From assembly GCA_903905475.1 (NCBI GenBank), contig CAIVGK010000267.1, positions 1 through 44,140 on the forward strand: 44,140 nt of DNA, written 5' to 3'. The position numbers and the translations under genes were made by a program. Positions 5,446 through 44,140 of this stretch are shown piece by piece; positions within the stretch are counted from its first letter, which is position 1, and each line of letters begins with the position of its first letter. A model generated the notes under the pieces. The model was not told where the DNA came from, searched no databases, and saw nothing but the letters and a program-made list of their open reading frames with translations. The DNA is from an uncultured Burkholderiales bacterium. Its GTDB lineage: Bacteria; Pseudomonadota; Gammaproteobacteria; Burkholderiales; Burkholderiaceae_C.

Positions 5446-5915
5446 TGGCAAACCTCACCCCACACTTCACCTACGAGGAGCTGACCCACACGGATCACCG
5501 CACGCTCGACAACACCCCGACCGAGCACGAGCGCTGCATCGTCGACGGCAAAGAGACCACCGTCAACGCGGTGGCGAACCTGCCGCGCTTGGCGGACTTC
5601 CTCGAGCAACTCAAGGTCGTGCTGGGCAACAAGCCCATCATGGTCAACAGCGCCTTCCGCTCCGAGGCGGTGAACAACTCGGTGGGTTCGAGCAACAAGA
5701 GCGATCACCGTCGCGGCTGCGCGGCGGACATCCGCGTGCCGGGCATGACGCCCGACCAAGTCACCCGCGCCATCATCGCGAGCAACCTGCCGTATCAGCA
5801 GGTCATCCGCGAGTTCGACCGCTGGACCCACGTGGCGATCACCACCAACGAGGGCGACGTGCCCAAGAAGTCCAAGCTCATCATCGACGGCCAAGGGACA
5901 CGCGCTTTTGCGTGA
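5445..5915 (+). CDS. Endolysin, peptidase M15 family
   Basis: Zn-ligand motifs SAFRSEAVNNSVGSSNKSDHRRGCAADIRV and WTHVAI. Confidence 0.85.
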   Translation: MANLTPHFTYEELTHTDHRTLDNTPTEHERCIVDGKETTVNAVANLPRLADFLEQLKVVLGNKPIMVNSAFRSEAVNNSVGSSNKSDHRRGCAADIRVPGMTPDQVTRAIIASNLPYQQVIREFDRWTHVAITTNEGDVPKKSKLIIDGQGTRAFA

Positions 5916-6390
5916 CCTGCGGCTCGGGCGGATGCAGGCCCGGGCGGGGCGCTACGGCAGGCTCAGGCTGGGGCTGTAGCGCTCTTGGATCGGTTGCCCA
6001 TACCGCCATATCATTTGCCGCAGGATCGAGGCTCTTGGCCTGTTTGGCGAGCTCCTGCACCATGTCCTGCAGCCGGGTCACCTCGGCCTGCAGGTTCTTG
6101 ATGCGCTGGCGGTCCCAGTAGCTGGCACGAATGTCACCAACGGTGAACTCCCACACGAAATCCGGCGGGATCAGCTTGCCCTTGCAAAAGCTCCAGCCCT
6201 CCCACTCCTTGCCCGCACCGGGCAGCCTGCGCCCGGCGAGCGCACGCAGCACATCCATGGTGGCTTGACTGGGTTTGGTGGCACCAGAGCGCCAGCGCAG
6301 TAGCGTGGTGCGGTGCACGTTGAGCGCGCGCTCGACGTAGCCGGGTCCGCCGATCAGGTCGATCAGCTCCTCGAGCTCGTGATTTAGCAT
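5881..6390 (-). CDS. DUF3653-like putative DNA-binding regulator with coiled coil
   Basis: HTH-like ...VERALNVHRTTLLRWRSGATKPSQATMDVLRALAGRRLPGAGKEWEGWSFCKGKLIPPDF...; convergent with endolysin, 3' ends overlapping. Confidence 0.65.
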   Translation of the reverse strand: MLNHELEELIDLIGGPGYVERALNVHRTTLLRWRSGATKPSQATMDVLRALAGRRLPGAGKEWEGWSFCKGKLIPPDFVWEFTVGDIRASYWDRQRIKNLQAEVTRLQDMVQELAKQAKSLDPAANDMAVWATDPRALQPQPEPAVAPRPGLHPPEPQVTQKRVSLGRR

Positions 6391-6554: not shown

Positions 6555-7010
6555 TCAGGGCTTTGACAAATTGGCGCCGAGGATGGCGGCGCGGGCGAGC
6601 TGGTACTTAATCTCGAGGCGGGCGGCCAGACCGGGGTTGGTCTTGGCTACCAGAGCAAGCCGCTCTAGGTCGGCGTTGTCCTCGATGTCGGCGAGCTTGA
6701 CCCTCCACGCGGGGCTGTTGGCGACCCGCTCGATGTAGTCGCTGTAGAGATTCCACGCCTTGCAGTTCAGCAGCTCGAGCATCTCCATGAGCTCGGGCTC
6801 CGCACCCATCTCCACCAGCTTGTTGTACATCGCCTTGCCAGAGTCCTCGAGGGCATCGTGCAGCAGCGCGGCCTTCATCTCCAGCTCGGTGGCGTCGGCG
6901 GGTAGCCGCAGCATGGTGCGGAACAAGTGGCCGATGTAGGGGCGGCCCGCCTTGTCCACTTGGCCTGCGTGGATGATGCAAGCTACATCGATCGCTTGGT
7001 AGAGATTCAT
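6555..7010 (-). CDS. HD-domain hydrolase of RelA/SpoT type (small alarmone hydrolase-like)
   Basis: HAGQVDKAGRPYIGHLFRTMLRL...KAALLHDALED...VKLADIEDNADLERL carries the H, HD, ED and distal D motifs of RelA/SpoT HD domains. Confidence 0.75.
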   Translation of the reverse strand: MNLYQAIDVACIIHAGQVDKAGRPYIGHLFRTMLRLPADATELEMKAALLHDALEDSGKAMYNKLVEMGAEPELMEMLELLNCKAWNLYSDYIERVANSPAWRVKLADIEDNADLERLALVAKTNPGLAARLEIKYQLARAAILGANLSKP

Positions 7011-7011
7011 A

Positions 7012-7158
7012 CTAACCTTTCAATTTTCTTACTAACGCATAGATGGGGTCGGGCACTGCGGCGTGGGCGAGGTAGCGGGGCAGGCCATCGAAGCCGATGT
7101 ACTCGGCCATCCAGATGGTGGCGTTCTGAGTGTTGCGCAGCATGCTGATGCGGTACAT
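7012..7158 (-). CDS. Small hypothetical protein
   Basis: ATG at 7158 directly after the upstream stop; MYRISMLRNTQNATIWMAEYIGFDGLPRYLAHAAVPDPIYALVRKLKG. Confidence 0.5.
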   Translation of the reverse strand: MYRISMLRNTQNATIWMAEYIGFDGLPRYLAHAAVPDPIYALVRKLKG

Positions 7159-7159
7159 C

Positions 7160-7558
7160 TTAGGCCGCCACTTTCTGGTAGACACCCTCGCCGTTGCTGA
7201 AGCTGCCGAGCTTGGCGTAGACGCCACCGAAGACCCCTGCCACGACCTTCTGGAACTTGGCGTTGATCCGGTTAGCGAAGCCCTTGCCGAGCTCGTAATA
7301 CTCATCGTCGTTGGGCACGACGCTGACCGAGACCAGTCCGCAGTATTCAGCAACCACGAACTGGACCAGTCTGTTGCTGGCAACCACGGCGCCCTCCCGG
7401 CCAACATAGCCGCTGTCTTCGCTCACGCTTGGAAAGGCGGCCTCGAGGCTGGCGACCAAGTCCTCCATCAGCATGTCGTACTCGAAAGAATCTTCGCACT
7501 CGACGCTGGCGTAGGCTACAACCTCGGCACCACTTGGAACATAAACGCTTCTGCCCAT
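7160..7558 (-). CDS. Hypothetical protein
   Basis: ORF 7160..7594 with start moved to ATG at 7558, preceded by CAGGAGATCGAA. Confidence 0.65.
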   Translation of the reverse strand: MGRSVYVPSGAEVVAYASVECEDSFEYDMLMEDLVASLEAAFPSVSEDSGYVGREGAVVASNRLVQFVVAEYCGLVSVSVVPNDDEYYELGKGFANRINAKFQKVVAGVFGGVYAKLGSFSNGEGVYQKVAA

Positions 7559-10550: not shown

Positions 10551-10843
10551 AGGTCGTACAGCGCGACGCTGTAGTAGGGGGCCCGCACCTTGGTGGCCTT
10601 GTTGATGATCCGCTTGGGGACCTCAACGGCTAAGAGCTCGACGACTTTCTTGTAGTCGACGCTTGGGGCTGGCTCGCTGAACTTGACGACAGCTTTGTAG
10701 GCGTCGCTCGAAATCACTTCAACGCCGCTGGCGATGAGCACTTCTTTGAGGGCCTTGGCCTCATCGTTCAGAGCTTTGAGCTCAGCGTTTACTTGGGCAA
10801 GGCGGTTGACAGAACTGGCGAGTGCAAGGTCATTGGGTTTCAT
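10547..10843 (-). CDS. Hypothetical coiled-coil protein
   Basis: First gene after promoter copy B; RBS AGGAGATCGAG-ATG. Confidence 0.65.
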   Translation of the reverse strand: MKPNDLALASSVNRLAQVNAELKALNDEAKALKEVLIASGVEVISSDAYKAVVKFSEPAPSVDYKKVVELLAVEVPKRIINKATKVRAPYYSVALYDL

Positions 10844-10844
10844 C

Positions 10845-10913
10845 TCGATCTCCTAAAGGTCGTGGTCAAAATCAACCACGCCTTGACTTTAGCACATGCT
10901 AAAGACTTGTCAA
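10845..10913 (-). promoter_or_regulatory. Regulated promoter, copy B
   Basis: Minus: TTGACA-16-TAAAGT, dyad TTTAGCATGTGCTAAA (10888-10903), CGTGGTTGATTTTGACCACG hairpin, RBS. Confidence 0.75.
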
Positions 10914-17445: not shown

Positions 17446-17789
17446 GCTGCTACTGCTTTCTCTTGGTAGAACGCGATCGCGTTCGCTTTGATTTCCTCGA
17501 TGCGGGTGAGGGCGAGTTCTTGTTGGGCGCGGACCACCTTCTCGGTGCACACGCGGGGCTTGCTGATTTCAACGCGGACGTTGAAGTCTTGGAACATCAC
17601 AAAGCGAGTGATGCTGATGCCGGGGGTGCCGCTCTCTTCGACTTCGACCACGCTGGCGAGGGTCTGGAGGTAGCCGCTGTCGCTCTTCATGGTGGTGACC
17701 TCGAGGACCTGCTTGCCTTGCAGAGCTACGCGGCTCTTGGCGACCCACTTGCCGTAGTAGTCTTTCTTGGTGTTGATCTGAACTTGCAT
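17442..17789 (-). CDS. Hypothetical protein
   Basis: MQVQINTKKDYYGKWVAKSRVALQGKQVLEVTTMKSDSG...; ATG 17789 with RBS AGGAGTTCAC. Confidence 0.65.
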   Translation of the reverse strand: MQVQINTKKDYYGKWVAKSRVALQGKQVLEVTTMKSDSGYLQTLASVVEVEESGTPGISITRFVMFQDFNVRVEISKPRVCTEKVVRAQQELALTRIEEIKANAIAFYQEKAVAA

Positions 17790-17790
17790 G

Positions 17791-17859
17791 TGAACTCCTG
17801 TGTTGTCGTGGTCAATCTCAACCACGACTCGACTTTAGCACATGCTAAAACGATGTCAA
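17791..17859 (-). promoter_or_regulatory. Regulated promoter, copy C
   Basis: Minus: TTGACA-16-TAAAGT, dyad TTTAGCATGTGCTAAA (17834-17849), TCGTGGTTGAGATTGACCACGA hairpin, RBS. Confidence 0.75.
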
Positions 17860-18070: not shown

Positions 18071-18484
18071 TCACTTCAGCAGGTTGATTAGTCGGCGCGC
18101 ATAGGCTTGTTGATTGGTGTTGGTCTCGGCGGCCCGCTCATACACGAGGTTGACTACCTCGGTGAACTTCTCTTTCGAGAGCTTCACGTTGCTGCCTTGC
18201 AGCAAGTCTTGCACCAACGCCACGACCTCGATGAGCAGATTTGTATCTGGCTGGCCCGGTGCGGTTTTGTGCTGCTGGTCCAACCACATAGGGGAGAGCC
18301 CTAGCTTCCTCTCGATCTCCCTCGCGACCTTCTCCGACACGTCGCGACTCGGGTGTGGCCCGGCGAGCTGTGCGAGGTAGCTCCCGTTGCTGTGCCCGAG
18401 CTTGACCGACAGAGATGTCGGCCCACCCCACTGCTCCATGAGTTTTCGCAGGTTGCCCCTGCGCGTATCGAAGACAGATTTCAT
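18071..18484 (-). CDS. XRE/CI-like transcriptional repressor
   Basis: NLRKLMEQWGGPTSLSVKLGHSNGSYLAQLAGPHPSRDVSEKVAREIERKLGLSPMWLDQ; divergent from a small HTH gene. Confidence 0.7.
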   Translation of the reverse strand: MKSVFDTRRGNLRKLMEQWGGPTSLSVKLGHSNGSYLAQLAGPHPSRDVSEKVAREIERKLGLSPMWLDQQHKTAPGQPDTNLLIEVVALVQDLLQGSNVKLSKEKFTEVVNLVYERAAETNTNQQAYARRLINLLK

Positions 18485-32985: not shown

Positions 32986-34662
32986 ATGGCAACTATCCCA
33001 GTCTATGACGGCCCCCAAGTAAAGGAAGCCCCGCTGCGCGGCGGCTTCCAAGAGCCTATCCGCAGCGCCGACGCCTTCGGCGCGGTGCAAGCGCGCCAGC
33101 TCGGCGAAGTCGCAAACGCAGTTACCAAAGTAGCTCAAGTCGTTGAGTACGAAAACGCACGCAACGACGCCGACGCGGTGTTCCGTGCAGAGACCAACCT
33201 GCGGGCGGGCTACCTCCAGTTCGAGGCCAACACCAAGAAGACCCGCCAAGGCCGCTCGGCTGAGGGCGTGCTCGAGGACACCGACAAGTGGTGGGCGGAG
33301 CAAGAGAAGGCCTTCACTGAAGGCATGGCGAACGATCGCCAGCGCGCGTTGCTGGCCCGCTCTGCCTCCCGCCTGAAGCTGCAGAGCCAAGCCCAGATGA
33401 GCGAGTTCCAGAACGTGCAGCTCGAGCGCTCGCACGACGAGAGCTGGAACGCGAGCAAGGCAATCGTCATCAGCAACACCGCCACGAACCCAACGCCCGC
33501 CAACGTGCAAAGCGCCATCGCGGAGCTTAAGACCAAGAACGCCTACCAAGGCGCACGCAAGGGCTGGGACTCGGATCAGATGACTGTGCAGAACATGAAG
33601 GACATGACGATCCTGCACACGAGCGTGGTTCAGAATCTGGCCGACAAAGACCCGGCAGCAGCGGAAAAGTATTTCACGCAGATTCCGCAGGACGAGTTTG
33701 ACGGCACACGCCGCGACGCCCTGAAGGACTCTATCGAGCGCGCTCGCACGCACCTCGACGCCAAGCGCCGCCAAGCGGTATCGCTGGCGGAGAGCGATGC
33801 GGAGAAGCGCGTGTGGGGTGCTATCGCCAAGGGCCAGACCCCGCGCGACATTGACCTCAACTCGATGAACCAAGAGAAGCGCGTCAAAGAGGTGGGGGGC
33901 TACTTCAAAGCGTTGCAAAAGGCCGAGGCCAAAGACGGTCGCATGCACGCCAAGGAAGACAACTACGAAGCGCTGGACTTAGCCGAGAAGGCCATCCAGC
34001 AGGGCGACGTCACCAGCGAGCGCGACCTCGATCGCTACGCTCCCTTCCTGCGCCCCGAGACATTCCGCACCCTGCGCAAGTCCTTCGAGAAGCGCGGCGA
34101 CGTTCCCGAGAAAGAGATCGAGCGCGCCTTCAACGAGCGCATGGGCGAGCAGCGCGCGAAGTGGATTAAAGACGAAGACAAGGTCAAGCAGTGGACCGCG
34201 TTCAAGAGCTACATCCTCGATGACGTGCGCGAGAAAAAGCGCCCAGAGGACATCGACGCTCTGGCCGATCGCTGGTTCACGAAGGGCTACGGCAAGGACG
34301 ACAGCGCCTTCCGCAACGACCCCGACACCTACGGCGAAGCACGCATGAAGGGGCGTAAGGACTTTGTCATTCCAGTGCCCGAGTCGAACAAAAAAGAGAT
34401 CGACAGCGCCCTTACAATTCTCAAGAGCGCGAACGCTGCTGCGCCAACAGGCAAAGCGGCAGCGGACGAGTTCTACACCAACTTTTACATGGACGCCTCA
34501 CGTTGGTTTGCCGCACGCAATGAGCCAGTCACTGGTGCGCGCGCAGCAGCCTTCGCGATTCTCAAGCAAAACAACAAACCAGTCACGGCTGCGAACATCA
34601 ACGCCGTGATGCAGCAACTGAAAGGCGCCCCAAGTGCTGGACCTCAACAACCTTCCCGATAA
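32986..34662 (+). CDS. Internal virion (ejection) protein, gp15-like
   Basis: Long helical protein in canonical position; QPAPKE-like N-terminus ATIPVYDGPQVKEAPLRGGFQEPIRSADAFGAVQARQLGEVANAV. Confidence 0.75.
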   Translation: MATIPVYDGPQVKEAPLRGGFQEPIRSADAFGAVQARQLGEVANAVTKVAQVVEYENARNDADAVFRAETNLRAGYLQFEANTKKTRQGRSAEGVLEDTDKWWAEQEKAFTEGMANDRQRALLARSASRLKLQSQAQMSEFQNVQLERSHDESWNASKAIVISNTATNPTPANVQSAIAELKTKNAYQGARKGWDSDQMTVQNMKDMTILHTSVVQNLADKDPAAAEKYFTQIPQDEFDGTRRDALKDSIERARTHLDAKRRQAVSLAESDAEKRVWGAIAKGQTPRDIDLNSMNQEKRVKEVGGYFKALQKAEAKDGRMHAKEDNYEALDLAEKAIQQGDVTSERDLDRYAPFLRPETFRTLRKSFEKRGDVPEKEIERAFNERMGEQRAKWIKDEDKVKQWTAFKSYILDDVREKKRPEDIDALADRWFTKGYGKDDSAFRNDPDTYGEARMKGRKDFVIPVPESNKKEIDSALTILKSANAAAPTGKAAADEFYTNFYMDASRWFAARNEPVTGARAAAFAILKQNNKPVTAANINAVMQQLKGAPSAGPQQPSR

Positions 34663-37600
34663 GTCTGCAACTCCAAACGGTGTAGCGCGGGAGAATGTTG
34701 GTTCCTCTCTGGACTTTTTACCAGATACGAACTCTGACACTCTCCGCTCGCTGTACCGTCAGCAAAAGGTAAACCCCGACGAGTACGCCAAAGCGCGCAG
34801 CTTGTCGAAAGCCACGGGGCTGCCCACACCGACGGTGCAGAGCAACCCAGCGCAGGCTACCGAGCTGGTGAACGAGCCCGACTGGAACACTGTCGAGCAG
34901 CTCTCGCCGAAGGCCGCCGCCGCTCTGGTCAACAACACAGAGCTCTTCAACCTCGCCAAAGACGACACCGCCAACCTCGCTCAGTGGGAGCGCGGGCTGG
35001 ACCTGTCCAAGCGCAAGGACCAAGAGCTCGCCGTGCAGAAGATGCCCGGCAAGCAGGACGACACCGTGGGCGCCGCGTTCAAGCGTGGCGTCACCGCGTT
35101 GGGTGTGTTCGGTGAAGCCTCCGCCGTCAAGATCGATGAGTTGCTCACTGCGGTGGGCACCATGTTCTTGCCTGAGCCAAAGAAGGGCCCAATGGGCTTG
35201 GCTCAGCAGGGCCCGATCGATGCGTCGAACCAAACCGCTAAGAGCTCCCTCACCGACGTAGCCAAGGCCTACTCCGCCCTCCCGCGCGACAAGCGCCTCG
35301 AGGTAGCGGGCAAGATTTTCGAGCAGGCCTACGACAACGATAAAAGTATCAGCGGCGCAGTGGACGCGCTGGGCTACATCGTGCGCAACCCAGACGCCGC
35401 CTTCAATTTCATGGTTGAGATGGGCGTGCAGGCCGCGCCGTTCGCCCCGGTCGGTGGCGCAATCGGTGGCGCTGTAGGTGGCTCTGTCGCCTCCCGCATC
35501 GCGAGCCAGAAGTTCGCCGAGTACGTCAGTGGCGCAGCCACCATGGCGGGCGTGAACTTCACGGCCAACTACGGCCCAACCCTCGCTGGCGAGATCGCGC
35601 AAAAAATCGCAGAGGGTCTGCCCTTTGAGGACGCGTGGGAATACGCCAACACCAAGGCCCTGACCGAGGGCGGCGTCAACGCTGCATTCGCGTTCGTGCC
35701 CGTGCCGGGCGGGGGCAAGGGCTCCTCGTTCTTTAGCAAGGTCGGCAACATCGCAGGCGAGGTGGTAAAGCAGGGCGTAGCAGGCGCTACAGGCGCTGCC
35801 GCTGCCGCTGCCTCCGTTGGTGAAACCGCCAGCCCGGCCGAGCTCTTCCTCGAGGCGGTCGGTGAGGGCTTCGGCGCACCGACCGACGTCGCATGGGCCG
35901 CTGTCACCAGCGGTGCGCGCAAGCTCACCAGCGACTCCACCAAAGTGCGCGAGTCGCAGGAGGAGTTCGACAAGCTCGTCAACATGGTGCAGATCGCCAC
36001 CGAGTCAAAGCTGCGCGCACGCGCACCAGACACCTTCGCTCAGTTTGTCCAGCAAGTCGCGGACGAAACCGAGGGCGCCGTCACTGAGGTGTACGTCGAC
36101 GCCCGCACTTTGGTCGACGTGCTCGCCCAGTCTGGTGTGGAGCAGGGCGCCTTCATCGGCCAAGTGCCGAGCGTTGCGGAGCAGCTGCAGGATGCGGTCA
36201 CCGCTGGCGAGGCGGTATCGATCCCGGTCGGTGAGTTCATGGGCAACGTGGTGGGCACAGGCCTCGAGGCCGCGCTGCTGCCGCACTTGCGCGCATCGGA
36301 GACCAGCCTCAGTCAGACCGAGCTGCAGGAGGCGGGCAAGCTCGCTGGCGAGTATCTGCAACAAATGGCAGAGAAGGTCGTCACCGAGGTCAACGACGCC
36401 ACCGCGTTCCAAACGAGCGCCGACGTCGTCAAGGGCAAGGTGCTCGAGCAGCTCAACGCTGGCAAGCGTTTCACTGCGGACGTCAACGAGACCTACGCCA
36501 CGCTGATTCGCAACTTCTACGCGGTCCTGAGCTCGCGCTACAAGATCACGCCCGAGCAGATGTGGGAGGGCGGATGGGCCGATGCCAGCGGCAAGGTCCA
36601 GCCAGCTCGCCGCTTAGCTGTCGGCGCAGAGGGCGTTCCAAACTTCGCCCCCGATGTGTTGCAGAAAAACAACACATTGAAAAATATTGTTGGCACCGAC
36701 ACCGCAGCAGAGGTGCAGGCCGCCACCCAGAGCTTCGAGCAAGTTCAGCCCGGCGCAAACGACCCTATTACGACGGAGCAGCGCTCGCAGGCCGAGCAGG
36801 TACTCGCACCCCTAGCCGAGCGCGCAAACGCAGCCAAGCCCGAATTTGACGCCTTGGTGACCCGAATTAACCAGCTCTTCGGTCAAGAGCCGAAGCTGGC
36901 CCCGATCAAGAGCCTCAAACGCGCAGCTGAGAAGCTGGTGATGGAGGCGGGCGGGGATGTGAACCTGATTCGCGACATGCTGCGCGCCACGATCGTGGTG
37001 CAAAAGCTCAGCGACGTGCAGCGCGCGATCGAGCAGGTGCAGCAGAACTTCGAGATCGTGCGGATTAAGAACCGCTTCGAGACCCCTACGGAGTCTGGCT
37101 ACCGCGACGTGCTAATCAACGTGCGCATGCCTGACGGCACTGTGGGTGAGATACAGGTGAACCTGCCCCAGATGCTGGCCGCGAAGGCCGAGGGGCATAA
37201 ACTTTATGAGATGGCGCGAGTGCTGCCTGCGGGCGACCCCCGCCGTGTGCAGCTCGAGGAGCTGCAGGCCCGGCTCTACGCCGAGGCTTTTGACTCTGCG
37301 ACCAACGCCTCGAACTCCGCCGCCTCAACAGGCGCGCCGTACGAGAACACTTTGGCGGAGTCGGGGAATGGTCTTGGCCCTGCCGCGCTGAACGCTACGC
37401 AAGAGCCGTCTGGCAATCTCGCTACCGGGATGCCATCGACATCGAACAACTTTGCACCGTCTGGGATTTCTAACATAACTGGAACCTCCGACCAAAGTAT
37501 AGCAGATGCTGAAACCGCCAACCAAGTAGTGCTGCAACAAAGCATTGACGCGGTCTTGGAGGCCCAGCCAGCGCCCGCCGCCGCGACGTTGGACGACTTC

Positions 37601-40600
37601 ACACCCGCCGCGCTGCCCGAGCTGCTGAGCAAGCAGGGCTGGGCGGTGCTCACCGCAGAGGACCCCGGCGCCGCCAAGGCGACCCCAGAGGCGAACGCGA
37701 TCGCGACCGCCAACCTGCGCGCTGACCTCGACGCCATGGGCGTTGACTACATCGAGGTGTCGGGCAAGTACGGCGACGTGCAGGGCGCCTTCATCATCAC
37801 GGGCTTGACCGAGCAGGAGGCCCTCGAGCTGGGCCGCAAGTACGGCCAAGAGTCGGTGCTGACCCGCAGCGGCTTGCTCTACGGCGACGGCTCCATCGTG
37901 CCCGCAGTGGGCATGGAGGTGTACGACACCGCGCCCGAGGACTTCTACACGACGGTGCCAACCACTGGCGCCTTCTTCAGTGTGGTGCTTGACTTCAACG
38001 CGGGCACTGGCGAGGCCTTCGCGCAGGGCAAGCCTGTGCGCGGCTTGGGCAAACCCAAGAGCGCGGTCAAGGCCGCGCCCGTTGTGGCGCTGCCAGACAC
38101 CCTTACCACGACCACCGCGATCGACATCCGCAACGGCGAGAAGGGCAACCTCTCGATCACGCAGGTCGGCGAATACTTCGACCGCATCACGGGCCAGCGC
38201 GACCCTGCAGACCCTGCAGAGTTCCAACGCGCGCTCGACACCTTGGTGGCCGAGATTCAGCACCAGCTCGCCCAAGAGAAGAGCGGCCTCGACTGGTACG
38301 AGGAGGACATCGCACTCGCCTTCGGAGAAACCCAGAAGCTCATTCCAGAGCTGAAGGACCCCGGCCAGCGCCAGCTCTTCTCCGTGATCGCGGGCATTCT
38401 CTCGCCACAAACCACCGCACGCGATAACTGGTTCATCGCTGCGAAAGCATTCCGCCACTTCAAGCAGACAGGCGTTGTGCCCGGTCGCAACCCAGAGACA
38501 GGCTCTCTGTGGCAGGGCGGCACGACATCGGTCAACAAAGAGAAGGCCCTCGTCTTCCTGAACAACATGATTCAGGACATCGGCGAGGCCGCCACCATCG
38601 AGTGGCTGATGGGCACCCACACCGTCAAAGAGCTCAACGCCGCACGCAAGACGTGGGGCAACATGGGCCCGGGCGTGGACGGCAAGATGACAGACACCGC
38701 CATGGGTGTGCGCGCGTTTGGTCCGAAGGTCGGCCCATTCGTGATGAACATCAACGGCATCCACGACATCACCGTGGACATGTGGGCAACCCGCACGTTT
38801 AACCGTTACTTCGGTCGCATGATCGGCCCGGATGGTAAGATCGTCGACGCGCCTACGGAACCCCAACGTAAGGTAGTAAAGGACCTCTTCAATGAAGCAG
38901 CAAAGCAACTCGGCATCAAGGGCTACCAAGTCCAGTCCGTCATCTGGTTCTTCGAGCAACAGCTCTTCAACCAACTCGGCACAGGCGCCCAAAGCTACGG
39001 ATTCAGCGACGGCGCCTTCCGATTCGCAGGAGAAATCGCAAGTGACGGCGGAGCTGTCACAGGCGGACCAAGCGCTGTCGGAAGCGCTCAAGCGTCAGAG
39101 GTCCTAGCCCAGAGCGCGCTGGACACCGGGATCAACCTCACCGGGGTCCACTTCAGCAAAGCAGCACGCACCTCCCTCGACGGCGTCTTCTACGGCACAG
39201 GCCTCAAAGGCCTCGAGGCCGAGCGCCTCAAAGAAGTCACCGACTCACGACTCAAGAACCGCGTCTACTTCTACGTGGACGAGGGCAAGGGCATCCGCCC
39301 AGAGTCTGGCATCGGCGGCATCGCGCACAGCGCAGACCTCACCAACCTCTACGACGCGAAGGCCGACCCCCTGCGTCTGTGGAGCGGCGACGTCAACACG
39401 ATCGAGTCGCGCATTCTCGATGCGGGCTTCAACGGCTACTACATCCGCGACGCCTTCAACAAGCAGGGCGCCGCTGTGGTGTTGGGTAACGCCTCCAAGG
39501 GCATCCCCGCCCAGCAGATCGCCAACCCAACGACAGGCGCGCCCGCGCAGGCTGCAGCCCCTACGCAGTACCGCCGTGGCTTGCTCTCCTACGAGCTCAA
39601 CAAGCTAGACCTCCCCGCCATCCAAGCGGTGGCACCGAGCGCCAACCTGCGTGCGGGCGTGTTTACTGTGGACGAGGCAGAGCTCGGTGCAGCTCGCGGC
39701 GTGCTGAGCAAGCAGGGCATCGCCCTGCCCGGCAAGTTCGCGCAGACACTGGCCGAGGACATGGAGGGCCAAGCCCCATTCCTCGAGCAGCGCGCCAAAG
39801 AGGCGGGCTACGACACGGTGGACGACTGGGCCGCCAACGATGTGGGCGCCTTCATGAAGGCTGCCGAAGAGTGGCGCCAGATGAACCCAGCCGAGACGCT
39901 GGCGCAACCTAAGCGCGGCACCTTCAGCCCTAGCCAGATGCGCATCGAGCTGCTGAAAGACGCAGACCTCTCGACCTTCCTGCACGAGGCGGGGCACTTT
40001 TTCCTCGACATGATGGCGGACTTGGCTGCACAGCCGGGCGCGCCCGAGGACATCAACAACGACATGGCCGCGCTGCTCAAGTGGTTCGGCGTGCCAGACC
40101 TGCAAACTTGGCAGGGCTACACCCTCGACCAGAAGCGCCCCTACCACGAGAAGTTTGCCGAGTCCTTCGAGCAATACCTCTTCGAGGGCAAGGCCCCCAA
40201 CGTCGAGTTGAAGCCACTGTTCCGCCGCTTCCGCGAGTTCATGACCAGCGCCTACAAGTCCCTCAAGGACTTCATGGCGCGCTACAACACGGGGCTCTCC
40301 GACGAGGTGCGCTCGGTGTTCGACCGCATGATCGCCACCGAGGACCAGATCAACGAGGCCGAGCGCGTGGCTGGCATGCTGCCAGACTTCGACGCCACCA
40401 ACGAGGCGATCGAGAAGCTCGGCGCCCGCAGTCTGCGAGACCTCAAGTGGGTGGTCAACGCCCGCAGCAAGCTGCTCAAACAGCTGCAGAAGGACGTCAA
40501 CGAAAAGCGCAAGGCCATGAAGGAGGAGGTCACCGCCGAGGTGCGCGCGATGCGCGAGTACGCGGTGCAACGCTTCCTGAAGTTCGGCGAGCTCGACGGC

Positions 40601-43582
40601 GCCAAGGTCGAGGGCGGCAAGCTCTCGCTGCCTGTGCTCAAGGAAATCTACGGCGAAGGCCCTGCAGCTCCATGGCGCTACCTCGCCACCAACATGGTGA
40701 CCAAGGACGCCGAGACAGGGCTGCACCCCAACATGGTGGCCGAGCTCTTCGGCTTTACCAACGGCGACGAGATGACCCGCGCGATCATCGGCGCAATGCC
40801 AGAAGACAGCACGATCGACGGCATGACCGACCAGCGCCTGCTCGAGCGTTACGGTGACTTGGTCACCGAGAAGGGCATTGAGCGCGCAGCCAACGAGGCG
40901 ATTCACAACGAGGCGCGAGCCCGCTTTGTGGCGACCGAGCTCAAGGCCATGCAAGAGGCCATGAACCCCCGCGAGCGCACGCCCGCAGGCGGCTCCGTCA
41001 ACGTGCTCTTGCGTGCTGCCAAGGACTTCGCCGAGAACCTCGTAGCACGCCGCAAGGTGCGCGATCTGAAGGCTGGCGCCCACACCTCGGCCGAAGCCCG
41101 CGCTGCACGCCGCGTGAGCCAAGCACAATCGAGCGGCGACACGCAGGCCGCGATTACGGCTAAGCGTGACCAGCTCTTAAACCACTACGCCGCCCGCATG
41201 ACGACCGAGGCGCTGACCGAGATCGACAAGAAGGTCGACTACCTGCGCAAGTTCGACAAAGACAGCGTGCGCAGCAAGCTGCCGCCCGAGTACCTAGCAC
41301 AAATCGACAAGCTGCTCGAGCGCGTTGAGTTGCGCCGTGGCACGACACTGCGGGAGCTGGACAAGCGCGCCAAGCTCGCTGAGTGGATCACCGCCCAGCA
41401 GGAGCTCGGCCTCGACCCAGCGATCCCAGACTACCTGCTCGAGGACGTACAGCTCAAGTCTTACAAGGACATGACAGTCGAAGAGTTCCGTGGCTTGGTT
41501 GACACAGTGCGCAACATCGAGCACTTGGGCCGACTCAAAGACAAGCTGCTGACCCTGCAAGACAAGCGCGCATTCGCTGCGGTGGTGCAGGAGCTCGAGG
41601 CATCCATCCGCGAGAACGCCACCAGCTCGCGCCCTGTGCGCGTGAACGCGCCGACCAAGCTCGACCGTGCGACCGACGCGGTTCGCGGCTTCTTCAGCGC
41701 CCACCGCAAGATCGCCAGCCTGATTCGCCAGTTCGACGGCATGAAGGACGGCGGCGTGTTCTGGGGCGTGTTCAACCGCTCCATGAACGCTGCGGGCGAC
41801 AAAGAGGCGGTGATGCGCGAGCAGGCCACCAAGGCGCTGTCGAAGATTTTCGAGCCCATCATCAAGGGCGAGAAGCTCAAGACCTTGGCCTTCATCCCAG
41901 CGATCAACATGAGCCTCTCGCTCGAGACCCGCTTGGCGGTTGCACTGAACTGGGGCAACGAGGCGAACCGCCAACGCGTGATGGACGGCGACAAGTGGAG
42001 CTCGCAGCAGGTCGACGCCATTCTGTCGACGCTCACCGCTGAGCAGCTCACCTTCGTGCAGAAGGCTTGGGACTACATCAACGGCTACTGGCCTGAGATC
42101 GCCGCCAAAGAAGAGCGCGTGAGCGGCATTGCACCCGAGAAGGTGCAGGCCTCCGCCTTCACGGTAACGCTCGCTGACGGCACAGAGATGCAGATGCGCG
42201 GCGGGTACTACCCCATCAAGTACGACCCCGACCGCTCGAGCAAGGCAGAGGCAGACACCGCCGCTGAGTTGACCAAGCAGATGATGATGGGCCAGTACAC
42301 CCGCGCCACCACACGACGCGGCCACACCAAGGGCCGTGCCGACACGGTCAACCGTGCGGTGCGCAAAGACATCGGCGTGATTTTCCAGCACGTCGATCAA
42401 GTCATCCACGACTTGGCTTGGCACGAGTGGCTCATCGACGCCACCCGCATTCTGCGCGCTGGCCCGATCGACGCCGCGATCCGCGAGACCGCCGGGCCAG
42501 AGGTGCTGCGCGAGATGAAGAAGACGATCGAGGACATCGCTGCAGGTGATGTGCCTGCGCAGTCTGAGTTCGAGAGCGCCGTCAACCACCTGCGGGTGGG
42601 CACCACGATCGCTGGCATGGGCTGGAACCTGATGACCTCCCTGATGCAGCCTCTGGGCCTCACACAGTCGATGGTCCGCATCGGCCCTAAGTGGGTGGGC
42701 AAGGGCTTGGCGCGCTGGATTGGCGACGCTACCCGCATGGAGAACACCGTCAAGGAGGTGTACGAGAAGTCCGACTTCATGCGCCTGCGCGGCCAGACCA
42801 TGCAGCGCGAAATCGCTGAAATCCGCAACAAGGTGCAAGGCGAGATGGCGGGCCCTGTGAAGGAGACCTTCTTCTATCTCATCCAGAAGGGCCAGCTCAT
42901 CGCTGACTTGCCCACTTGGCTGGGCCAGTACGAGAAGGCCATGGCCGACATCGTGGACGAAGAGCGCGCCATCGCGTTGGCAGACCAAGCCGTGCGCGAC
43001 TCGCAAAGTGGCGGCCAGATTATGGACCTCGCCCGCGTGCAGCGCGGCGGCCCCTTGCAGAAGCTCTTCACCAACTTCTACTCGTACTTCAACACGACCT
43101 ACCAGCTCACGGCGGAGCGCTACAACACCACCAGCTTCAAGGACCCGCTGCAGGTTGGCCGCTTCATGGTCGACATGCTGCTGCTCTACACCGTGCCTGC
43201 GGTGCTTGGCTTCGCGATGAAGGAGGCACTCAAGGGTGGGGGCGATGACGACGACTTGGCAAAGCGCCTCGCCGCTGAACAGCTCAACTACATGCTGGGC
43301 ACGATGGTCGGCCTGCGCGAGGTCGGCGCCGCTGTCGCTGGCTTCAACGGCTACCAAGGCCCGGCTGGCACCCGCTTCTTCAGTGAGCTTGGCAAGTTCG
43401 GCAAGCAGGTGGAGCAGGGCGACGTGGACGGTGCATTGCTCAAGTCGCTCAACAACGCGGCGGGCATTCTCTTCCACTACCCAGCGGGGCAGGTCAACCG
43501 CACGGTGGAGGGCTTCAACGCTCTCGTCGAGGGCAAGACCGCTAACCCACTGGTGCTCGCCTTCGGGCCCCCGCGCGAATAA
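34634..43582 (+). CDS. Giant polyvalent internal virion/ejection protein (2982 aa)
   Basis: Single ORF; includes RelA/SpoT-synthetase-like region (36830-37260), DUF3293-like (37620-38040), HhH-glycosylase-like (38100-39050), ART/InPase-like polyvalent domain (39118-39510), HEAGH metallopeptidase (39983-39997) and C-terminal ejection-core region with TM segments. Confidence 0.85.
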   Translation: MLDLNNLPDKSATPNGVARENVGSSLDFLPDTNSDTLRSLYRQQKVNPDEYAKARSLSKATGLPTPTVQSNPAQATELVNEPDWNTVEQLSPKAAAALVNNTELFNLAKDDTANLAQWERGLDLSKRKDQELAVQKMPGKQDDTVGAAFKRGVTALGVFGEASAVKIDELLTAVGTMFLPEPKKGPMGLAQQGPIDASNQTAKSSLTDVAKAYSALPRDKRLEVAGKIFEQAYDNDKSISGAVDALGYIVRNPDAAFNFMVEMGVQAAPFAPVGGAIGGAVGGSVASRIASQKFAEYVSGAATMAGVNFTANYGPTLAGEIAQKIAEGLPFEDAWEYANTKALTEGGVNAAFAFVPVPGGGKGSSFFSKVGNIAGEVVKQGVAGATGAAAAAASVGETASPAELFLEAVGEGFGAPTDVAWAAVTSGARKLTSDSTKVRESQEEFDKLVNMVQIATESKLRARAPDTFAQFVQQVADETEGAVTEVYVDARTLVDVLAQSGVEQGAFIGQVPSVAEQLQDAVTAGEAVSIPVGEFMGNVVGTGLEAALLPHLRASETSLSQTELQEAGKLAGEYLQQMAEKVVTEVNDATAFQTSADVVKGKVLEQLNAGKRFTADVNETYATLIRNFYAVLSSRYKITPEQMWEGGWADASGKVQPARRLAVGAEGVPNFAPDVLQKNNTLKNIVGTDTAAEVQAATQSFEQVQPGANDPITTEQRSQAEQVLAPLAERANAAKPEFDALVTRINQLFGQEPKLAPIKSLKRAAEKLVMEAGGDVNLIRDMLRATIVVQKLSDVQRAIEQVQQNFEIVRIKNRFETPTESGYRDVLINVRMPDGTVGEIQVNLPQMLAAKAEGHKLYEMARVLPAGDPRRVQLEELQARLYAEAFDSATNASNSAASTGAPYENTLAESGNGLGPAALNATQEPSGNLATGMPSTSNNFAPSGISNITGTSDQSIADAETANQVVLQQSIDAVLEAQPAPAAATLDDFTPAALPELLSKQGWAVLTAEDPGAAKATPEANAIATANLRADLDAMGVDYIEVSGKYGDVQGAFIITGLTEQEALELGRKYGQESVLTRSGLLYGDGSIVPAVGMEVYDTAPEDFYTTVPTTGAFFSVVLDFNAGTGEAFAQGKPVRGLGKPKSAVKAAPVVALPDTLTTTTAIDIRNGEKGNLSITQVGEYFDRITGQRDPADPAEFQRALDTLVAEIQHQLAQEKSGLDWYEEDIALAFGETQKLIPELKDPGQRQLFSVIAGILSPQTTARDNWFIAAKAFRHFKQTGVVPGRNPETGSLWQGGTTSVNKEKALVFLNNMIQDIGEAATIEWLMGTHTVKELNAARKTWGNMGPGVDGKMTDTAMGVRAFGPKVGPFVMNINGIHDITVDMWATRTFNRYFGRMIGPDGKIVDAPTEPQRKVVKDLFNEAAKQLGIKGYQVQSVIWFFEQQLFNQLGTGAQSYGFSDGAFRFAGEIASDGGAVTGGPSAVGSAQASEVLAQSALDTGINLTGVHFSKAARTSLDGVFYGTGLKGLEAERLKEVTDSRLKNRVYFYVDEGKGIRPESGIGGIAHSADLTNLYDAKADPLRLWSGDVNTIESRILDAGFNGYYIRDAFNKQGAAVVLGNASKGIPAQQIANPTTGAPAQAAAPTQYRRGLLSYELNKLDLPAIQAVAPSANLRAGVFTVDEAELGAARGVLSKQGIALPGKFAQTLAEDMEGQAPFLEQRAKEAGYDTVDDWAANDVGAFMKAAEEWRQMNPAETLAQPKRGTFSPSQMRIELLKDADLSTFLHEAGHFFLDMMADLAAQPGAPEDINNDMAALLKWFGVPDLQTWQGYTLDQKRPYHEKFAESFEQYLFEGKAPNVELKPLFRRFREFMTSAYKSLKDFMARYNTGLSDEVRSVFDRMIATEDQINEAERVAGMLPDFDATNEAIEKLGARSLRDLKWVVNARSKLLKQLQKDVNEKRKAMKEEVTAEVRAMREYAVQRFLKFGELDGAKVEGGKLSLPVLKEIYGEGPAAPWRYLATNMVTKDAETGLHPNMVAELFGFTNGDEMTRAIIGAMPEDSTIDGMTDQRLLERYGDLVTEKGIERAANEAIHNEARARFVATELKAMQEAMNPRERTPAGGSVNVLLRAAKDFAENLVARRKVRDLKAGAHTSAEARAARRVSQAQSSGDTQAAITAKRDQLLNHYAARMTTEALTEIDKKVDYLRKFDKDSVRSKLPPEYLAQIDKLLERVELRRGTTLRELDKRAKLAEWITAQQELGLDPAIPDYLLEDVQLKSYKDMTVEEFRGLVDTVRNIEHLGRLKDKLLTLQDKRAFAAVVQELEASIRENATSSRPVRVNAPTKLDRATDAVRGFFSAHRKIASLIRQFDGMKDGGVFWGVFNRSMNAAGDKEAVMREQATKALSKIFEPIIKGEKLKTLAFIPAINMSLSLETRLAVALNWGNEANRQRVMDGDKWSSQQVDAILSTLTAEQLTFVQKAWDYINGYWPEIAAKEERVSGIAPEKVQASAFTVTLADGTEMQMRGGYYPIKYDPDRSSKAEADTAAELTKQMMMGQYTRATTRRGHTKGRADTVNRAVRKDIGVIFQHVDQVIHDLAWHEWLIDATRILRAGPIDAAIRETAGPEVLREMKKTIEDIAAGDVPAQSEFESAVNHLRVGTTIAGMGWNLMTSLMQPLGLTQSMVRIGPKWVGKGLARWIGDATRMENTVKEVYEKSDFMRLRGQTMQREIAEIRNKVQGEMAGPVKETFFYLIQKGQLIADLPTWLGQYEKAMADIVDEERAIALADQAVRDSQSGGQIMDLARVQRGGPLQKLFTNFYSYFNTTYQLTAERYNTTSFKDPLQVGRFMVDMLLLYTVPAVLGFAMKEALKGGGDDDDLAKRLAAEQLNYMLGTMVGLREVGAAVAGFNGYQGPAGTRFFSELGKFGKQVEQGDVDGALLKSLNNAAGILFHYPAGQVNRTVEGFNALVEGKTANPLVLAFGPPRE
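37498..37513 (-). promoter_or_regulatory. Cryptic operator/extended -10-like site inside the giant gene
   Basis: TATAGCAGATGCTGAA; one mismatch to operator consensus; minus strand TGC-TATACT with TTGGTT 18 bp upstream. Confidence 0.3.
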
Positions 43583-43642: not shown

Positions 43643-44140
43643 ATGACTGTACCTGCCGCCGAGCGAAAGGCTGGCCCGTTCAACGGGAACGGGTCGACCA
43701 CCGCATTTCCATTCACCTTCAAAGTCTTCACCACTGAGGACATCGAAGTCATCTTCGCCGACACCGATGGTGTTGAGACCGTGCTCGAGCTCGACTCCGA
43801 TTACTCGGTGTCGCTGAACGCGGACCAAGACGAAGACCCGGGCGGCACGGTCACCTACCCGATCAGCGGCACCGCTCTCGCCACAGGCGAGAAGCTCAGC
43901 ATCGCTGGCGCTTTGCCCTACGAGCAAGAGACAGACATCCCCACAGGCGGCAACTTCAACCCAACCGTGTTGGAAAACGCGCTCGACAAACTGAGCATGC
44001 AGACCCAGCAGCTCGCCGAGTCGGTGAGCCGTGCAGCGAAGGTGCCGATCACCAACGCTGCGGACGCTGACACGTTGACGCAGGCCATCCTCGTGGCCGC
44101 CAACAACATCGCGGGCCTCGAGGTCGTCGTCGCAAACATC
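43643..44140 (+). CDS. Tail fibre protein, N-terminal part (T7 gp17-like N-terminal domain); continues in frame at position 1 of the window
   Basis: ATG at 43643; translation MTVPAAERKAGPFNGNGSTTAFPFTFKVFTTEDIEVIF... is typical of podovirus fibre N-termini. Open to window end; base 44000 equals base 1 and the frame is preserved. Confidence 0.85.
   Translation, partial: MTVPAAERKAGPFNGNGSTTAFPFTFKVFTTEDIEVIFADTDGVETVLELDSDYSVSLNADQDEDPGGTVTYPISGTALATGEKLSIAGALPYEQETDIPTGGNFNPTVLENALDKLSMQTQQLAESVSRAAKVPITNAADADTLTQAILVAANNIAGLEVVVANI
44000..44140. repeat. Terminal direct repeat, right copy (identical to 1-141)
   Basis: Exact identity read at both ends. Confidence 0.95.

Follow-up and report, generated by a model that had tools for sequence, protein, structure and literature searches.

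The phage genome described here encodes, on opposite strands, a RelA/SpoT-type synthetase domain within a giant protein of 2982 amino acids and a small alarmone hydrolase of the Aph1 type. Since a domain of the alarmone-synthetase family and an enzyme of an alarmone-destroying type share one genome, the phage seems to carry both the "on" and the "off" enzyme for one nucleotide signal. The explanation favoured here, with somewhat better than even confidence, is that the domain acts as a nucleotide 3'-pyrophosphokinase delivered by the virion, with (p)ppApp as its probable product, and that it is paired with a phage-made hydrolase acting as its antidote. Support comes from the fold, from the conserved catalytic residues of both enzymes, from the presence of both genes in one phage and their joint absence from a sister phage, and from a statistical association between the two. 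The features concerned are listed in Table 1.

Table 1. Coordinates of the synthetase-bearing protein, the hydrolase operon and associated elements in the window.
Feature	Position	Strand	Basis
Small alarmone hydrolase, 151 aa, Aph1-like	6555..7010	-	phmmer, profile, AlphaFold2, Foldseek, invariant residues
48-aa ORF, second gene of hydrolase operon	7012..7158	-	Read directly from sequence
132-aa ORF, first gene of hydrolase operon	7160..7558	-	Relatives in only two phages (Alishewanella, 31%)
63-bp promoter/operator/RBS repeat heading the hydrolase operon, with palindrome TTTAGCACATGCTAAA	7556..7618	-	Repeat search; promoter-like scan
Second copy of 63-bp promoter repeat, 89%	10841..10903	-	Repeat search
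Third copy of 63-bp promoter repeat, 79%	17787..17849	-	Repeat search
2982-aa polyvalent protein, probable internal virion/ejection protein	34634..43582	+	Uninterrupted frame, GTG start; LPD22 and phrog_9880 matches
N-terminal framework, aa 1-645, with LPD22 at aa 42-121	34634..36568	+	77% identity to sister phage
Variable cargo slot, aa 646-1749	36569..39880	+	RelA domain, DUF3293, DUF7178; other cargo in sister phage
Recurring synthetase module, aa ~665-960 (domain and Ser/Asn/Thr-rich tail)	36626..37513	+	BLASTP of window protein against L011-L032
RelA/SpoT-type synthetase domain, aa 718-889	36785..37300	+	Pfam, phmmer, AlphaFold2, Foldseek, profile; D781, E839, Q841, Y823, K759, K851, H855, Y858
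C-terminal framework, aa 1750-2982	39881..43579	+	81% identity to sister phage, 45% to BPP-1 Bbp10
Candidate self-processing protease with zincin-type HEAGH motif, aa 1784-1788	39983..39997	+	Sequence; BPP-1 equivalent is HESGH

The window, meaning the whole stretch of 44,140 nucleotides that was analysed, is an entire contig (G000:C267) within a 2.86-Mb bin. Because an exact 141-bp direct repeat is present at both of its ends and the tail-fibre frame reads on through the junction, the simplest reading of the window is a complete, circular phage genome about 43,999 bp long, and on account of the repeat an integrated prophage fragment was rejected as the identity of the contig. No integrase was recognised among the window ORFs scanned. 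The portal, major head and tail genes match those of the BPP-1 group; the phage is BPP-1-like and short-tailed. Two ORFs at 5881-6390 and 18071-18484 resemble HTH regulators, as judged by eye and from weak Pfam matches.

The giant gene comes after genes with matches to internal virion proteins of phages and to an endolysin family, occupies the genome position held by Bbp10 in Bordetella phage BPP-1, and is followed by a tail protein ORF at 43643. On the strength of this gene order and of the position and homology shared with Bbp10, the 2982-aa protein is probably an ejection protein that is packaged in the virion. No virion proteomics of Bbp10 was found, and the BPP-1 structural paper, in which mass spectrometry identified the two main capsid proteins, has no mention of it. 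Bbp10 aligns with residues 448-627 and 1761-2978 of the window protein at 35-45% identity (45% across the latter), the middle being absent from Bbp10. The corresponding protein of a sister phage (IMGVR_UViG_3300033067_000400; major shared DNA blocks 81-84% identical to the window, others 73-77% and a few above) matches at residues 2-645 (77%) and 1750-2982 (81%), and between them carries a different cargo of 924 aa that includes an ART-PolyVal domain but lacks a RelA domain. As the sister protein keeps both framework halves but holds different cargo between them, the alignments place the synthetase in an exchangeable cargo slot.

A Pfam scan of the whole 2982-aa protein returned LPD22, DUF3293 (residues 1006-1075), DUF7178 (residues 1362-1439) and RelA_SpoT, together with a weak match to GldB_lipo and nothing further. 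The first four agree with the definition of polyvalent proteins as several catalytic or LPD domains joined in one phage protein, and both DUF domains lie inside the cargo slot, where an ART-like stretch was also read by eye. The HEAGH motif is situated directly past the slot; the scan gave no family match at it, and the zincin or protease identity of this segment is therefore putative. BLASTP found the module at residues 665-960 again in many other giant proteins of phages, the longest of 4978 aa, with identities of about 32-39%; several further polyvalent protein lineages are among them. Its Ser/Asn/Thr-rich tail (window 37300-37513, residues ~890-960) is conserved even where the frameworks of these giant proteins differ, and possibly acts as a linker or in processing.

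An earlier note, made from the sequence alone, had proposed a RelA/SpoT-synthetase-like domain at 36830-37260, and the peptide quoted is encoded exactly there, on the plus strand, within the 2982-aa ORF; the boundaries were good, with the folded domain extending over about 36785-37300. The likeness itself is borne out at several levels. The excised piece matches Pfam RelA_SpoT (PF04607) at E 9.1e-7 (29.6 bits, the cut-off being 27; 23.6 bits, under the cut-off, when the whole protein is scanned), a phmmer search of the PDB matches it to Tas1 at E 9e-10, and a profile built from 44 relatives reaches Tas1 at 1.6e-31, with the next chain at 4e-10. The AlphaFold2 model of residues 718-889, built with 44 relatives, has a mean pLDDT of 97.2 and a pTM of 0.89, and its top Foldseek match is Tas1 (6ox6; E 6e-11, probability 1.00, TM 0.73), followed by SaEAS and SAS1/SAS2, all 50 best matches being alarmone synthetases. 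Structure prediction thus gave an alarmone-synthetase fold and not a non-nucleotidyltransferase one, and residues of about 718-889 are, in this model, a RelA/SpoT-superfamily synthetase fold.

The catalytic D/E/K constellation on which the earlier note had staked its claim is intact in nearly all homologues. The Mg-binding aspartate, the E-x-Q motif, the acceptor-site tyrosine and the basic residues are all present in the domain; among 48 non-redundant homologues, D781, E839 and Q841 are found in all 48, Y823 and K851 in 47, K759 in 45, K767 and Y858 in 44, and H855 in 43. The E-values, the fold and the invariant residues rule out chance similarity as the origin of the domain. A scan of viral contigs with the single domain sequence returned no relatives, and one with a four-sequence alignment then returned 70; in bacterial and archaeal genomes the scan turned up just four loci, so the comparison rests mostly on viral contigs. 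A second synthetase-domain protein, 45% identical, is encoded on the minus strand of a short contig of the same bin (L002; G000:C53:369-797), beside a ferritin-like ORF, and this contig is probably another phage. A second hydrolase near this other copy was considered, and the window hydrolase alone was found in the bin with the query used.

Sequence and fold together place the domain beside the (p)ppApp synthetase Tas1 and not with the (p)ppGpp synthetases or the tRNA-modifying toxSAS. In alignments, the syn2 motif is R-A-T, which is of the Apk R-x-T type and not the AVR of RSH enzymes, and syn4 is EIQVN, as in Tas1. Syn3 reads GYRDVL, which is neither the G-x-N of Apk enzymes (motif definitions from PMC12226406) nor the SxH of RSH enzymes, and for this reason the acceptor nucleotide may differ. 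Given the closeness to Tas1, the R-x-T and EIQVN motifs and the Aph1-type partner hydrolase, the predicted product is most likely (p)ppApp, with (p)ppGpp as second choice.

The hydrolase was recovered by phmmer as a relative of the (p)ppApp hydrolase 7smg (E 1.3e-12), and a profile of its family matched 7smg at 4.7e-52, the next chain being at 2.5e-23; the Pfam HD_4 match was marginal (E 0.027). Its AlphaFold2 model (pLDDT 96.6) superposes on 7smg with a TM of 0.79-0.88 (Foldseek E 6e-7), and the HD catalytic residues H28, H51, D52, E55, D56, D108 and N112 are invariant in a set of 84 sequences. Position 19 is an aspartate, as in 7smg and in 70 of the 84, and an arginine in host RSH and PHB04-type hydrolases; the residue pattern is suggestive, and only suggestive, of Asp19 marking a preference for adenine.

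The hydrolase is the third gene of a predicted operon behind a 63-bp repeat, with promoter-like hexamers at 7629-7601. Each of the three copies of this cassette contains the palindrome TTTAGCACATGCTAAA and terminates at a start codon, all are in the early-type region, and no copy was found in the sister phage. The hydrolase shares its strand with genes for a helicase, a DNA polymerase, an ssDNA-binding protein and an exonuclease and sits among the early-type genes of the window; in G004, the hydrolase has Sak4 and Cas4-type exonuclease genes beside it. As for the first gene of the operon, a role as direct inhibitor was considered, and its two distant phage relatives were uninformative on function.

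The sister phage is without the RelA cargo and also without the hydrolase operon of about 1.1 kb: the sequences flanking the operon are separated by about 1.1 kb in the window but by some 65 bp in the sister phage. Across the 70 viral records with the synthetase domain, many of which are fragments, whole-record searches detected a hydrolase in 25 (10/48 plus 15/22). When restricted to records of at least 28 kb, it was detected in 16 of 35 and undetected in 19, whilst 28 control records found through the portal protein contained neither synthetase (0/28) nor hydrolase (0/28, or 0/21 at 28 kb or longer). Fisher's test gives p 1.3e-4 when the long records are compared and p 6e-5 when all are, with counts that ignore the relatedness of the phages. 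In 10 of 10 cases of unlinked genes (nine records and the window), synthetase and hydrolase occupy opposite strands, at a distance of 13-21 kb. In the reverse direction the association is weak, a synthetase being detectable in 8 of the 50 records that carry a hydrolase. Phages widely encode small alarmone hydrolases, in most cases with no detectable synthetase, and relatives of the window hydrolase occur in 180 INPHARED records.

In INPHARED, both phage lineages with a homologous domain (PHB04 and MT835636) have a hydrolase close to it. In phage vB_BbrM_PHB04 (L004:9080-12040), the portal gene is followed by the synthetase-domain protein, a small ORF, the hydrolase and a Ser/Thr phosphatase gene. 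In IMGVR_UViG_3300025308_000073 (L018:5864-20482), one frame of 4873 aa holds a RelA-type synthetase and a downstream hydrolase domain (L018:16292-16681) that is intact, with all HD catalytic residues present, and which possibly unites synthetase and antidote in a single phage polypeptide.

From these observations we infer virion delivery, catalytic activity, product, timing and the antidote role of the hydrolase as parts of the favoured explanation. An active 3'-pyrophosphokinase domain would ride as exchangeable cargo in the giant polyvalent protein, which would probably be packaged and then ejected along with the DNA, the delivery of polyvalent proteins with the genome having been proposed earlier (Iyer et al., 2017; PMC5512222). 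By analogy with the same source, release of the cargo may be the work of the protease-like HEAGH segment. Once in the new host, the synthetase would most likely move pyrophosphate from ATP onto ADP or ATP to give (p)ppApp, by which the purine nucleotide pool would be drained or reprogrammed. The Aph1-type hydrolase, made from a promoter-led operon among early-type genes, would then clear the product and so serve as antidote and off-switch, for which there is precedent in the pairing of Apk2 with Aph1 (PMC12226406) and of FaRel with its SAH antitoxin, a hydrolase (PMC11782079). A possible, though doubtful, elaboration is that the virion-borne synthetase acts as a pulse at entry, before phage transcription, and that the early-region hydrolase ends it, so that rival invaders or the defences of the host are hit but the infected cell, on which the phage depends, is protected; the distinct syn3 motif GYRDxL/M may in addition point to an acceptor nucleotide as yet undescribed for the superfamily.

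The chief rival explanation is that the hydrolase is an independent counter-defence against (p)ppApp or (p)ppGpp made by the host, through the stringent response, toxSAS or T6SS effectors, and that its presence alongside the synthetase is incidental. The early-type location of the gene fits this, as do the 180 INPHARED records with a relative and the 42 of 50 hydrolase-carrying phage records that have no detectable synthetase. We nevertheless regard it as unlikely, in view of the enrichment of the hydrolase in synthetase-carrying phages (16/35 against 0/21), the absence of both from the sister phage, the adjacent pairs of the PHB04-type lineage and the joining of both domains on one polypeptide in L018. 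Similarly improbable is that the domain makes (p)ppGpp and brings about a stringent-like host state favouring the phage. The fold is common to (p)ppGpp synthetases, the hydrolase that accompanies relatives such as PHB04 is of the arginine type, and some toxic relatives, for example SaEAS, produce both nucleotides (PMC12691689); yet the profile similarity to Tas1 is far above that to (p)ppGpp synthetases, the SxH of RSH syn3 is missing from the domain, and the hydrolase of the window belongs to the aspartate (Aph1) type.

The earlier note's reading is supported in part: the synthetase fold and the catalytic constellation were recovered, and entry into the cell with the virion and an alarmone product are predicted. 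The note had also allowed for an enzyme acting on tRNA. A tRNA CCA-end pyrophosphokinase such as FaRel2, PhRel or CapRel would belong to the same superfamily, and viral toxSAS of that kind do exist (PhRel of phage Phrann; PMC12691689). It is nonetheless very unlikely, as the nearest relative is a nucleotide-specific enzyme and no tRNA-targeting toxSAS appeared among the profile matches at E 0.01 or the 50 best structural matches; it was accordingly rejected as the identity of the domain. That the domain is inactive and merely a structural part of an internal virion protein would suit its location in a large structural-cassette protein, and is just as hard to credit, given that 48 diverged homologues of many architectures all keep the catalytic D, E and Q and that BPP-1 and the sister phage manage without the domain.

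Phage polyvalent and MuF proteins with RelA/SpoT domains are already known, as are MuF synthetase/hydrolase pairs. The RelA/SpoT domains were described, in the portion of Iyer et al. (2017; PMC5512222) used here, from polyvalent proteins and MuF fusions of Spirochaetes and epsilonproteobacterial phages and prophages, and the window protein resembles them in having the domain inside a phage polyvalent protein; that portion mentions neither BPP-1-like podoviruses nor a phage-encoded paired hydrolase. The Apk2/IapK/Aph1 toxins of MuF prophages (PMC12226406) likewise combine a head-cassette synthetase protein with a phage-encoded Aph1-type hydrolase. Unlike Apk2, the window protein has no MuF family match in the Pfam scan of the whole protein, its domain is internal and not C-terminal, its syn3 differs, and no adjacent iapK or aph1 is found in the window, the Aph1-like gene being 13 kb off on the other strand. 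Tas1 (Apk1; 6ox6), the T6SS (p)ppApp synthetase, is the closest solved relative, with the R-x-T syn2 and EIQVN syn4 in common, but the window domain is phage cargo and not a T6SS effector, its syn3 is GYRDVL against GYSGVN, no PAAR domain was found in the Pfam scan of the window protein, and no Tis1-like gene was identified.

The closest solved relative of the window hydrolase is Aph1 of Bacteroides caccae (7smg), which shares its catalytic residues and the GQxDKAG motif, but the two are about 31% identical and the window gene is apart from the synthetase gene. Bordetella phage vB_BbrM_PHB04 (MF663786) also has a homologous synthetase domain and a small alarmone hydrolase, whereas its synthetase is a 493-aa protein encoded next to the portal gene and its hydrolase, an enzyme of the arginine type, is encoded almost alongside. 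Bbp10 of BPP-1 is the same framework protein in the same genome position, but without cargo segment or RelA domain, and no hydrolase was detected in that genome.

The earlier note overlooked the hydrolase gene (6555-7010) and the cargo-slot architecture, as well as the 2017 description of RelA/SpoT domains in polyvalent proteins (PMC5512222). The domain by itself joins the known RelA/SpoT phage domains, and what is new is an Aph1-type hydrolase in the same phage as a polyvalent synthetase; no report was found, in the literature searched, of a BPP-1-type internal-protein synthetase paired with an unlinked hydrolase on the opposite strand. The range of these enzymes is thereby extended to giant internal proteins of short-tailed phages. 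As synthetase and hydrolase lie in separate regions and on opposite strands of one small genome, and a close sister phage is without both, the role of alarmone synthetases of the phage particle, of which the Apk2-type MuF toxins have so far been characterised as enzymes, becomes testable at this locus.
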